A DNA stretch of 28,081 nt, from positions 1-28,081 of IMG/VR virus record IMGVR_UViG_3300022198_000924; one strand, 5' to 3'. The DNA comes from a virus. This document shows positions 23,600 through 26,464 of this stretch, in pieces (the stretch's first letter is position 1; every line of letters begins with the position of its first letter). Made by a program: the position numbers and the translations under genes. The notes beneath the pieces were generated by a model. That model did no database searches and was not told the origin of the DNA. It worked only from the letters and a program-made list of their open reading frames with translations.

Positions 23600-23815
23600 T
23601 CAATCAAAGTTAGTCGGATCGTTTTCTTCAAACCAGTTAATAATCCACTCAACGACACTACGCTGACCAGATCGGTACATAATTTTTTCCATTGTATCTT
23701 CAGGTGTGGGTGTAGTTGGTGGAAATGTTTCGTCTAGTTTGGAGAGCATAGCCGTAGCAGCCATGCCCTTAACGTCCAGAAGGTTAAGCGTACTGGGGTA
23801 GGTTTGGGTTGGCAT
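23600..23815 (-). CDS. Small conserved cyanophage-type protein, 71 aa
   Basis: The frame from ATG 23815 reads MPTQTYPSTLNLLDVKGMAA, continues TAMLSKLDETFPPTTPTPED and ends with the RSGQRSVVEWIINWFEEND region. It overlaps the 3' end of the ribonucleotide reductase beta gene by 32 bases in another frame. A shorter start at 23764 (MAATAML) would avoid the overlap. The acidic, Trp-containing C-terminus suggests a small folded protein or a protein-interaction peptide. No function is known to me. Confidence 0.7.
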   Translation of the reverse strand: MPTQTYPSTLNLLDVKGMAATAMLSKLDETFPPTTPTPEDTMEKIMYRSGQRSVVEWIINWFEENDPTNFD

Positions 23816-24500
23816 GTTCAAAGAAAGCAGGCATCCGTGCCCTACGTGTTTCAGAAAGCTCAGGTGCTTTACCTTGGTACATCAAACTATCACTGGAATC
23901 CAGCCAAAATTTTTTGTCCAAATATTTATTGGAGGTATTTCTACCTAGAGGTTCAAGCACCCAATTAATGGTTGCCTTTCTGAGCTTATCCAAAGAAGGA
24001 CTCCAATTGAGACTAAGCTCACGACATACCAAGCTATTTGCTGCAACGTGTACTTGTTCATCACGTGAAATGTCTGCGCTTACTGTTCGGAGACCAGCAT
24101 CACCGTTAAATCGGAAGAATGGGAGGAGCACAAAGAAAATCGCACGTTCGGCAACAAGTGCTTTGAGGATCGTGTGATCTGGATGAGCAATCCAGGCGTC
24201 CCGAATTTTCTTTGCTTCGGCTTCAGCCTTTTCATCAACGCCGATAGCGTTGGCGATGTAACCGAGTGCAAGGTCGTGGTTCTCTTCGTCTTTGATATTG
24301 GATTGAAGGAGATCCCTCGCCATGTTCGGTACTTCATTTTTCAGTGCATCAGTGATAAAGTCTCCAACTGGTAGTTCCATATGACGAACAGCCAAGGCAC
24401 GGTAGATAGTTTCTTCCGCACCTTCAGCCAGTTTACCAGCAGTTGTTTGGACAGGTGTCCAGGTTCGTTTACGATTTAGTAGTTTTTGATAGGGGTTCAT
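23784..24500 (-). CDS. nrdB: Ribonucleotide reductase class I beta (R2) subunit, tyrosine-less
   Basis: The 238-aa protein has a ferritin-like four-helix arrangement. Likely metal ligands are Glu42 (HMELP), Glu72 and His75 (DEENH), Glu118 (VAERAIFF), Glu148 and His151 (RDEQVH). In E. coli R2 the radical Tyr122 lies four residues after the equivalent of His75; here that position is Leu79 (ENHDLAL). The enzyme therefore cannot use a standard tyrosyl radical and more likely resembles metal-radical (Id-like) or otherwise modified class I enzymes. It is short compared with E. coli R2 (376 aa). It would supply the radical to the alpha subunit for dNTP synthesis. The ATG overlaps the alpha stop in ATGA; an upstream TTG start is less likely. 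Confidence 0.85.
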   Translation of the reverse strand: MNPYQKLLNRKRTWTPVQTTAGKLAEGAEETIYRALAVRHMELPVGDFITDALKNEVPNMARDLLQSNIKDEENHDLALGYIANAIGVDEKAEAEAKKIRDAWIAHPDHTILKALVAERAIFFVLLPFFRFNGDAGLRTVSADISRDEQVHVAANSLVCRELSLNWSPSLDKLRKATINWVLEPLGRNTSNKYLDKKFWLDSSDSLMYQGKAPELSETRRARMPAFFEHANPNLPQYA

Positions 24501-25888
24501 TCGCCGCAATTACAATCAGGAGCAGGATCATTTAGAATCGACTCCAGGTAATCGTCAACCTCTGACTCATCCAATGCAGCATATGCACTAGTCTTGTCTT
24601 GGGTATCACCCATCACCTGAAGCGAATAATAAAGGGAGGTCTGCGGGGATTGCAGCCACTCTTCGATAAACGCTTCATCATAGGTGATCACATCAGACCA
24701 ACTATTGAAGCTATAACCGTGAAGAAGTCCCGTTGAGTCAAGCATCCGCATGATGCCATCAGCGACTCGTTTGTAAGATTCCCAGCCAACTTCCGACGCG
24801 ATTTCAACATTACCGTAGTCGTAGCTCTGGACACCAAAGGTTCCGCTGTCACGGTCAACCTGGCGGGCAATGGGAGGAGCGATCTCAGGGGTAGTAGTGT
24901 ACCCATCAAGATCCTTATAGCGATAGCTACAGGAGGCTGTAGGAGCGATGGCAAAGGCACGATCCATACGATTGTACTTAGCTACCTCTGCAGCTGCCTT
25001 AACGCCGATCTGGAGTTCCTTGGCGAGCACGTACCCAGGGGTCTCGGGGTAGGGGCGACCACTGTTAAGTGCTTCAAGTGCCAACCCGAAGCTTTCGTAA
25101 GTTACTCCGTAGCGTCGGAGAAGGTTGGCAAGTCCCAACATTCCGAGACCGACTTGGCGATCAGTCTCTGAAGGGAGGTACTCTCCGCTTTCTCCAACAT
25201 TTGTTTTGCCGTGTAGCTTACACAGTTCGGACATTCCTTTGACAAATGCACCTTGAATGTCATCGAATTCACATCCGCCGAGGTTGACATGTTGAAGTAG
25301 ACAGGTCCCTCGTGAGGGGAGGTATACCTCCAAGCAAACGTTACCCCGGATTCGATTTCCATTTCGATCGACTTTAGTTTTGTTGAGCCAAACGTCACCA
25401 CGTTTGATGGCAAGAATCAACGCTTCCTTGACGTCTTTGGTGGCAAGATTCCACCAGTAATCGTTAATGTTAACACAACGCTTTACCCAAGGAAGTTCAG
25501 CTCGGCTAACAGTAATGAAGTCAAGAACGTCAGGGTGGCTGAGATCCAAGTGACATACTACTGCTCCGTTCTTGTAGACGCCACCGCGACGGAGAATTTC
25601 ATTAAGTGTGGAGTAGATCTTAGCAAACGACACAGGACCAGACGCTACAAGTCCTTTACCATTTTCAGATCCTTTGGGTCGCAGTTTGCTAAGGTGGACA
25701 GCAACTCCTGCACCGTAGCGTAGTGCATGGCTGACGAAACGCCACGAGGCTTCGATTCCATTTTCTCCTTCCATTGTGTCTTCCACAACGAAGACGGTAC
25801 AGGATACAGGCAGCCTAGAGGTTGGATCATCAATCCAGGATTGTACACGCCCAGTGCGGGCAATTAGTTCTTTGGCGGGGGCAGACAT
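24497..25888 (-). CDS. nrdA: Ribonucleotide reductase class I alpha (R1) subunit, without ATP cone
   Basis: The 463-aa protein keeps the catalytic core: Cys30 (PVSCTVF, equivalent of C225), Asn183-Cys185-Glu187 in NVCLEV (thiyl radical site), Cys196 (TCLLQHVNLGG, equivalent of C462), PTASCSYR loop, the tyrosine pair Tyr420-Tyr421 (TSLYYS) that relays the radical from beta, and a C-terminal CNC (459-461) for reduction. It reduces ribonucleoside di- or triphosphates to deoxy forms. The whole N-terminal ATP-cone domain of E. coli NrdA (761 aa) is missing, so overall activity should not be shut off by dATP. It starts 2 bases after the MazG stop, and the next gene is its beta partner. The Tyr pair and the adjacent beta gene show class I rather than class II. 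Confidence 0.92.
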   Translation of the reverse strand: MSAPAKELIARTGRVQSWIDDPTSRLPVSCTVFVVEDTMEGENGIEASWRFVSHALRYGAGVAVHLSKLRPKGSENGKGLVASGPVSFAKIYSTLNEILRRGGVYKNGAVVCHLDLSHPDVLDFITVSRAELPWVKRCVNINDYWWNLATKDVKEALILAIKRGDVWLNKTKVDRNGNRIRGNVCLEVYLPSRGTCLLQHVNLGGCEFDDIQGAFVKGMSELCKLHGKTNVGESGEYLPSETDRQVGLGMLGLANLLRRYGVTYESFGLALEALNSGRPYPETPGYVLAKELQIGVKAAAEVAKYNRMDRAFAIAPTASCSYRYKDLDGYTTTPEIAPPIARQVDRDSGTFGVQSYDYGNVEIASEVGWESYKRVADGIMRMLDSTGLLHGYSFNSWSDVITYDEAFIEEWLQSPQTSLYYSLQVMGDTQDKTSAYAALDESEVDDYLESILNDPAPDCNCGE

Positions 25889-25890
25889 TA

Positions 25891-26271
25891 TTAAACGAGA
25901 TCAGTAAGGTTAGGAGGTTGATAATTTGGTCCTTTCAGAACCTTCCCATCTTCTCGGTAGATAGGTTTACCGTTGTCGTCCAGTTTGGACAAGTTACTTT
26001 GGTGGACACGATCAAGAGCTTCATCAAGATCCCACCCAAGGTTAGCTGCATACTGGTAACACACATAGACCAGATCAGCTAGTTCCTTCAGGCACTCAGA
26101 GGCGTTGACAGTGAGTCCCATGATCAGCTGGTTTTCAGCATCAAGGAACTCTTTGAACTCTTCAACGATCAAACGCCTCTGCAAAGTCCGTGAAGCCGGC
26201 GTAGTACTGTTCCTCACCTGGAAACTTTTCCGGAACTCTACGGCTTGCTGCTGACGGGTGGAGGATGTCAT
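25891..26271 (-). CDS. MazG-like nucleotide pyrophosphohydrolase
   Basis: The 126-aa protein has the all-alpha NTP pyrophosphohydrolase metal motif: Glu37-Glu38-x-x-Glu41 (VEEFKEF) and Glu63-x-x-Asp66 (KELADLV), followed by YQYAANLGWDLDEALDRVHQ and a C-terminal segment DGKVLKGPNYQPP, as in small MazG/PRA-PH-like phage proteins. It would hydrolyse (d)NTPs or alarmone-type nucleotides and thereby favour nucleotide recycling in the infected cell; the true substrate is unknown. It sits directly before nrdA (2-base gap). Its 5' end overlaps the DUF3310 gene by 110 bases in a different frame; the N-terminal residues there (AVEFRKSFQV) look like the family, so the overlap is probably real. Confidence 0.88.
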   Translation of the reverse strand: MTSSTRQQQAVEFRKSFQVRNSTTPASRTLQRRLIVEEFKEFLDAENQLIMGLTVNASECLKELADLVYVCYQYAANLGWDLDEALDRVHQSNLSKLDDNGKPIYREDGKVLKGPNYQPPNLTDLV

Positions 26272-26464
26272 TTTCTAGTTCGTTTTGAAGGTAGTGGATT
26301 GCTTTACGGAGGTCATCACGACGACTGTCTTTGTAACCAGCTCGGCAGATGTATTTAATTGCATTACCAAGGTGGAAGTTTAGTCCTTGGTCTCGGACGA
26401 AATCCCAAACTTGGATAGAACCTCGTCGATAGTAGTCGGGTCCATGATTGTCGGAGCTGGCCAT
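26162..26464 (-). CDS. DUF3310 family protein (T7 gp1.7-related domain)
   Basis: The 100-aa protein contains the DUF3310 pattern: DYYRRGSIQVWDFVRDQGLN, then FHLGNAIKYICRAGYKD and DDLRKAIHYLQNEL (residues 10-63). T7 gp1.7, a nucleotide kinase, contains a domain of this kind, so a role in nucleotide metabolism is plausible, but kinase activity cannot be read from this short version. The last 36 residues (from about residue 65) are encoded in the overlap with MazG. Its own start lies inside the preceding 95-aa gene (85-base overlap). Together with MazG and the RNR it forms a nucleotide-metabolism group. Confidence 0.85.
   Translation of the reverse strand: MASSDNHGPDYYRRGSIQVWDFVRDQGLNFHLGNAIKYICRAGYKDSRRDDLRKAIHYLQNELENDILHPSAASRRVPEKFPGEEQYYAGFTDFAEAFDR

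Follow-up and report, generated by a model that had tools for sequence, protein, structure and literature searches.

A cyanopodovirus member of the class Ø ribonucleotide reductases and a chromosomal relative behind a cobalamin riboswitch in one cyanobacterial lineage

The small ribonucleotide reductases (RNRs) of cyanophages are known as Cyano SP or class Ø. Harrison 2019 (PMC6370689, "Cyano SP") reported that the P-SSP7 enzyme has no cone and no Tyr at the radical site, with the same ligand set as described below, and proposed a new subclass; placement of Cyano SP in class Ic was rejected there by network and trees. Burnim 2022 (PMC9531940) named class Ø and described for it a Leu or Phe in place of the radical Tyr, a short beta without the usual alpha-binding tail, and an alpha ending in CXC or CXXC, together with an alpha structure. 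According to a 2026 preprint (PMC12918982), class Ø is yet to be biochemically characterised. The closest described system to the locus analysed here is the class Ø enzyme of Synechococcus phage S-CBP4 (7urg, PMC9531940), which has the same length class, lack of cone, CXC tail, short beta and gene order, with C30, C185, C196, Y420 and Y421 of alpha numbered identically and Leu/Phe four residues after the first EXXH His of beta (H+4); the two differ only in sequence divergence (84% DNA identity over the RNR locus). Both deposited S-CBP4 records carry a beta that is frame-interrupted near its C-terminus, so that the terminal Tyr is missing from the annotated product, and P-RSP2 alpha and beta are likewise interrupted; these frame breaks may be sequencing errors. 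P-SSP7 (PMC6370689) also lacks the Tyr, has ligands E42, E71, H74, E117, E147 and H150 with D70 and D146 (own numbering), and its beta is 78% identical to ours. Among cellular enzymes, the class Ic beta of Chlamydia trachomatis (Mn/Fe) resembles the phage protein in its inert Tyr-site residue, Glu-rich ligands and acidic residue before EXXH, but it is only about 19% identical, is longer and has an alpha-binding tail, and its alpha carries three ATP cones (PMC9669993). Class Id of Flavobacterium johnsoniae shares the cone-less alpha and the first-sphere ligands but keeps the beta Tyr, has a larger alpha and uses a Mn2 cofactor.

The stretch analysed here (the window), a viral fragment of 28,081 bases, has a T7-like cyanopodovirus gene set that includes portal, scaffold, internal virion protein, DNA polymerase, exonuclease, psbA and hli. 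Its RNR genes and the other features discussed are collected in Table 1. The stop codon of alpha and the ATG of beta overlap as ATGA; a 241-aa form of beta starting at TTG 24509 is a mechanical ORF call only. After beta comes a small conserved protein (PHROG 4970, weakly Bbp19-like) that occupies the same position in many cyanopodovirus loci.

Table 1. Positions of the features discussed (window coordinates unless a locus or genome handle is given)
Feature	Coordinates	Strand	Evidence or remark
RNR alpha (class Ø / Cyano SP), 463 aa	24497..25888	(-)	Pfam, 7urg alignment, residue check
RNR beta (ferritin-like R2), 238 aa, ATG 24500	23784..24500	(-)	PHROG 6799, motifs, conservation, fold
Alpha C30 (first active-site Cys)	25799-25801		
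Alpha C185	25334-25336		
Alpha C196	25301-25303		
Alpha Tyr dyad Y420-Y421	24626-24631		
Overlap of alpha stop and beta ATG	24497-24500		ATGA
Leu79 codon of beta	24264..24266	(-)	H75+4, radical-Tyr site of class Ia/Ib R2
Tyr81 codon of beta	24258..24260	(-)	H75+6, rejected as radical site
MazG-like nucleotide pyrophosphohydrolase	25891..26271	(-)	Pfam/PHROG; immediately upstream of RNR alpha, within nucleotide-metabolism gene cluster
DUF3310 / "nucleotide kinase" PHROG protein	26162..26464	(-)	Pfam/PHROG
Small conserved protein after beta	23600-23821		PHROG 4970
S-CBP4 beta, frame-interrupted	L081:3001-3713; L083:3001-3707		
Cobalamin riboswitch, metE, orf144, alpha, beta, orf155 (G033, G050)	L216:9111-15349; L217:9100-15343	(-)	
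Paralogous small orfs flanking alpha-beta	L216:9111-9575; L216:11892-12323		no Pfam match
Truncated class Ø beta (G115)	L218:2965-3504	(-)	
Class II RNR split by in-frame insertion	G050:C52:58093-62469; G115:C10:3908-7255		

A preliminary description of this DNA had reported an alpha of 463 aa that starts near its first active-site Cys without an N-terminal cone and keeps a Tyr-Tyr relay and a C-terminal Cys pair, and all of this was borne out. The first Cys is C30, with C185 and C196 completing the active-site set; the only Pfam match is the barrel PF02867, from residue 28, with no ATP-cone match in the window alpha; the dyad is Y420-Y421 and the tail C459-N-C461 (CNC). That description had also held that an ATP cone elsewhere in the genome would speak against its reading. 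Because the window is only a 28-kb fragment, the cone search was run in 13 related phage records as well; no cone was found in the window or in those records, and the control gave a signal in 12 of the 14 genomes. Over its full length the alpha aligns with 7urg, the S-CBP4 alpha (939.6 bits); by this match and by the alpha and beta trees, which have no firm root, the window pair clusters with the published class Ø clade. Across the family the dyad is present in 144 of 145 alphas, and the C-terminal tails divide into 68 CXC and 62 CXXC. Escape from dATP feedback, also proposed earlier, is plausible given the missing cone as read from the sequence; some RNRs without a full cone have other inhibitory sites, as in B. 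subtilis Ib or with cones on beta (PMC9669993).

The class assignment follows the same traits. A cone-less minimal alpha with a CXC tail and an adjacent downstream ferritin-like gene is the class Ø / Cyano SP pattern, and the Tyr dyad of alpha combined with a dimetal R2 beta is a class I trait. A class II enzyme would have an adenosylcobalamin site in place of the dyad and no beta; here both dyad and beta are present. Such an alpha has nonetheless been read as a class II (adenosylcobalamin) RNR, which would make beta an unrelated ferritin-like protein: old annotations do so (nrdJ in P-SSP7), and by BLAST class Ø alphas score higher against class II than against class I (PMC9531940). We consider this very unlikely. 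In 7urg the two Tyr residues are stacked next to the catalytic Cys, in the place that an adenosyl group would take (PMC9531940); wherever an annotated cyanopodo- or siphovirus locus has both genes, beta lies directly 3' of alpha; and the cyanobacterial class Ø copy described below is preceded by a cobalamin riboswitch and metE, its genomes having a class II RNR as well.

Beta matches PHROG 6799 ("ribonucleotide reductase class Ia beta subunit") at E 8e-140. The six probable metal ligands and the Leu79 four residues after the EExH His, as first described, were confirmed with their numbering: the motifs are EENH at 72-75 and EQVH at 148-151, and the ligands E42, E72, H75, E118, E148 and H151. 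A Leu here fits both class Ø, where Phe or Leu is expected, and class Ic, where the residue is redox-inert. The protein ends ...LPQYA, with a single residue (238) beyond Y237, as class Ø betas do, and it lacks the C-terminal alpha-binding tail of class I. Conservation was assessed over 156 distinct betas from IMG/VR, isolate phages and genome contigs. Leu occupies H+4 in 153 of them and Phe in the other 3, so that none has Tyr there; E42, E72, H75, E118, E148, D71, D147 and Y237 are invariant, H151 is so apart from one ambiguous residue, and W14 is found in every row covering that position, being absent only at one row's gap. With the ligand set constant, that one ambiguous residue aside, and H+4 almost always Leu across 156 distinct relatives, the pattern is not chance. 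W14 and Y237 are probably radical-transfer residues.

One objection, for which the preliminary description itself named Tyr81, is that this or another Tyr bears a classical tyrosyl radical and that the enzyme is functionally class Ia/Ib. Tyr81 is indeed Tyr in 152 of the 156 betas, but it is Phe in the other 4, all from phages, and in the cyanobacterial copies it is Met (G033 and G050) or Leu (G115); with these replacements in relatives it is not the radical site. Eight cellular class I R2s, moreover, place their invariant Tyr at H+4 (H116/Y120, alignment A4) and not at H+6. The position of Leu79 is also that of Phe127 in the Chlamydia class Ic R2, of which PDB 2ani is the F127Y mutant. A hidden tyrosyl radical is thus very improbable.

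The predicted fold places beta among the R2 proteins. The AF2 model of beta has a mean pLDDT of 89.5 and a helix order that fits the ligand pairs, with residues 222-238, which carry Y237, modelled below 50. Foldseek against the PDB returned R2 proteins, the five best being C. trachomatis class Ic R2 (NrdB) at E about 1e-4; these matches are moderate (TM 0.57-0.62), and because the rmsd is large (5-10 A) they support the fold and its neighbourhood and not the identity of the metal. Sequence profiles against the PDB again ranked C. trachomatis R2 first, weakly (E 0.03 at best); a single-sequence search with beta found nothing relevant, and profile-profile comparison with cellular R2s aligned the second metal motif alone, at 37% probability. 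The conserved dimetal site beside Leu is most likely, by analogy, a class Ic-type metal-centred oxidant, and Mn, suggested in the preliminary description, is perhaps present in beta, being compatible with best fold matches that are Mn/Fe class Ic R2s. A dimanganese (class Id-like) or diiron-only cofactor is possible but rather unlikely: a class Id R2 (F. johnsoniae, 8dq4) is also among the fold matches, and the first-sphere ligands fit Ic and Id alike (PMC6370689), but class Id R2s retain Tyr at H+4 (PMC6370689), the invariant D71 before the first EXXH ligand resembles class Ic E119 (PMC6370689, Table 3), and class Ic gives the best fold matches. As for the earlier claim of a Tyr-free cofactor, what stands is a Tyr-free R2-like beta with a cone-less alpha; what does not is its novelty. 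The missing cone, the Tyr-site substitution and the short beta are all reported in PMC6370689 and PMC9531940, and so the RNR feature of the window is real and already described, with both traits published for the enzyme family; the window pair falls within the Cyano SP / class Ø RNRs of cyanopodo- and cyanosiphoviruses as an ordinary representative.

We consider it very likely that the pair is a class Ø RNR that holds its oxidant on metal and supplies dNTPs without B12. From motifs, conservation, fold prediction and operon context we infer the metal identity, the radical path and the lack of feedback as follows. Alpha is a minimal catalytic barrel, with specificity site, Cys triad, Tyr dyad and C-terminal CXC shuttle and without a cone, and beta a short R2-type ferritin fold with a dimetal site formed by E42-E72-H75 and E118-E148-H151. 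Because Leu occupies the Tyr site, the oxidised metal cluster itself would store the oxidant as in class Ic, most likely as Mn/Fe or a similar high-valent centre; class Ø beta can be unstable without metal (Burnim et al., PMC9531940). The hole would probably pass from D147 through W14 and Y237 of beta to Y421, Y420 and C185 of alpha. Such an enzyme, probably without an ATP-cone dATP shut-off, would provide deoxynucleotides for lytic replication without adenosylcobalamin.

The suggestion that this cofactor suits the iron-poor ocean fared less well. Leu is kept at H+4 in the beta of the Lake Chaohu phage Mic1 and in cyanobacterial chromosomal copies behind a B12 riboswitch, and the 2026 preprint (PMC12918982) explains the anti-correlation of Cyano SP with iron by the distribution of the hosts and by metal pools inside the cell; on these grounds the iron argument is weak. 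Harrison's alternative is nitric oxide avoidance (PMC6370689).

A second issue concerns who carries class Ø. Burnim et al. (PMC9531940) count marine bacteria, Tara Oceans MAGs among them, as the source of about half of class Ø. When GTDB species genomes were scanned with the phage beta, 18 loci (L090-L107) came up in bacterial or archaeal MAGs and SAGs, and all 18 lie on phage-like contigs. In 17, a cyanopodovirus portal and/or exonuclease adjoins the RNR; the eighteenth (L101) has alpha and a phosphoesterase resembling those of siphovirus S-CBS4. By their gene content, these loci are probably phage contigs, misbinned or co-sorted. No class Ø was found in 398 further Pseudomonadota genomes, and a plasmid search gave no match. 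The proposition that every cellular class Ø record is misbinned phage is disproved for two genomes, G033 and G050, by a search of Cyanobacteriia.

That search, of 390 genomes, found three further carriers (G033, G050 and G115); a second sample of 386 genomes of the same phylum held no additional carrier genome, and class Ø is rare in cyanobacterial genomes. G033 and G050 count as one lineage because they are close relatives, their metE genes being 95% identical. The surroundings are chromosomal (proS, a sugar kinase, a protein that reads as sugar-nucleotide dehydratase-like, and metE), on a 472-kb contig in G033. On one strand metE is followed by an orf of 144 aa, then by alpha (459 aa), beta (239 aa) and an orf of 155 aa. 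Alpha keeps all catalytic residues and ends in a CVAC tail; the 144-aa and 155-aa orfs flanking alpha-beta are paralogues and possible accessory proteins. About 650 bases upstream of metE is a cobalamin riboswitch (61 bits in G033 and in G050), with the next upstream gene on its far side; a transcription terminator after it is suggestive in G033 (z -3.2), with no clear U-run in G050. From this order and the shared strand we infer that the one riboswitch would control all genes of the cluster. As metE encodes the cobalamin-independent methionine synthase, the cluster reads as a B12-sparing unit. Both genomes also have the usual monomeric class II RNR (TIGR02505), which rules out class Ø as their sole RNR, and neither has a PF00268 R2. 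The arrangement suggests that chromosomal class Ø serves as a B12-independent isoenzyme, a B12-free backup. Our searches of open-access papers found no earlier report of a riboswitch-metE-class Ø locus. The third cyanobacterium, G115, has a truncated class Ø beta adjoining cas1 and cas4 on a 3.7-kb contig. In G050 and G115 the class II RNR is split by a long in-frame insertion that is probably an intein. In the beta tree the cyanobacterial beta separates the Mic1-like phages from the rest of the phage betas; the alpha tree (class II outgroup), whose root branches are saturated, puts the cyanobacterial alpha on a long branch near siphovirus sequences, in conflict with the beta tree on its attachment.

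To the published picture we add the measured invariance of the Leu site, the rejection of Tyr81 as radical residue, evidence that the MAG/SAG records recovered come from phages, and the locus that joins riboswitch, metE and class Ø. On balance it is likely that one cyanobacterial lineage keeps class Ø on its chromosome as a B12-independent backup of its class II RNR, that the MAG/SAG members are misbinned phage, and that the Leu cofactor extends beyond marine phages and is not specific to the iron-poor ocean. The MAG/SAG result bears on the "marine bacteria" class Ø members of PMC9531940: if such records are phage contigs, there is less evidence that class Ø is widespread among marine bacteria, and some of the evolutionary argument, in which class Ø is the proposed ancestor of class I and class II RNRs, weakens too. 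The chromosomal copy, under apparent B12 control, predicts that class Ø would be induced by B12 shortage and would be able to replace the class II enzyme, and it offers a free-living host in which class Ø can be tested.
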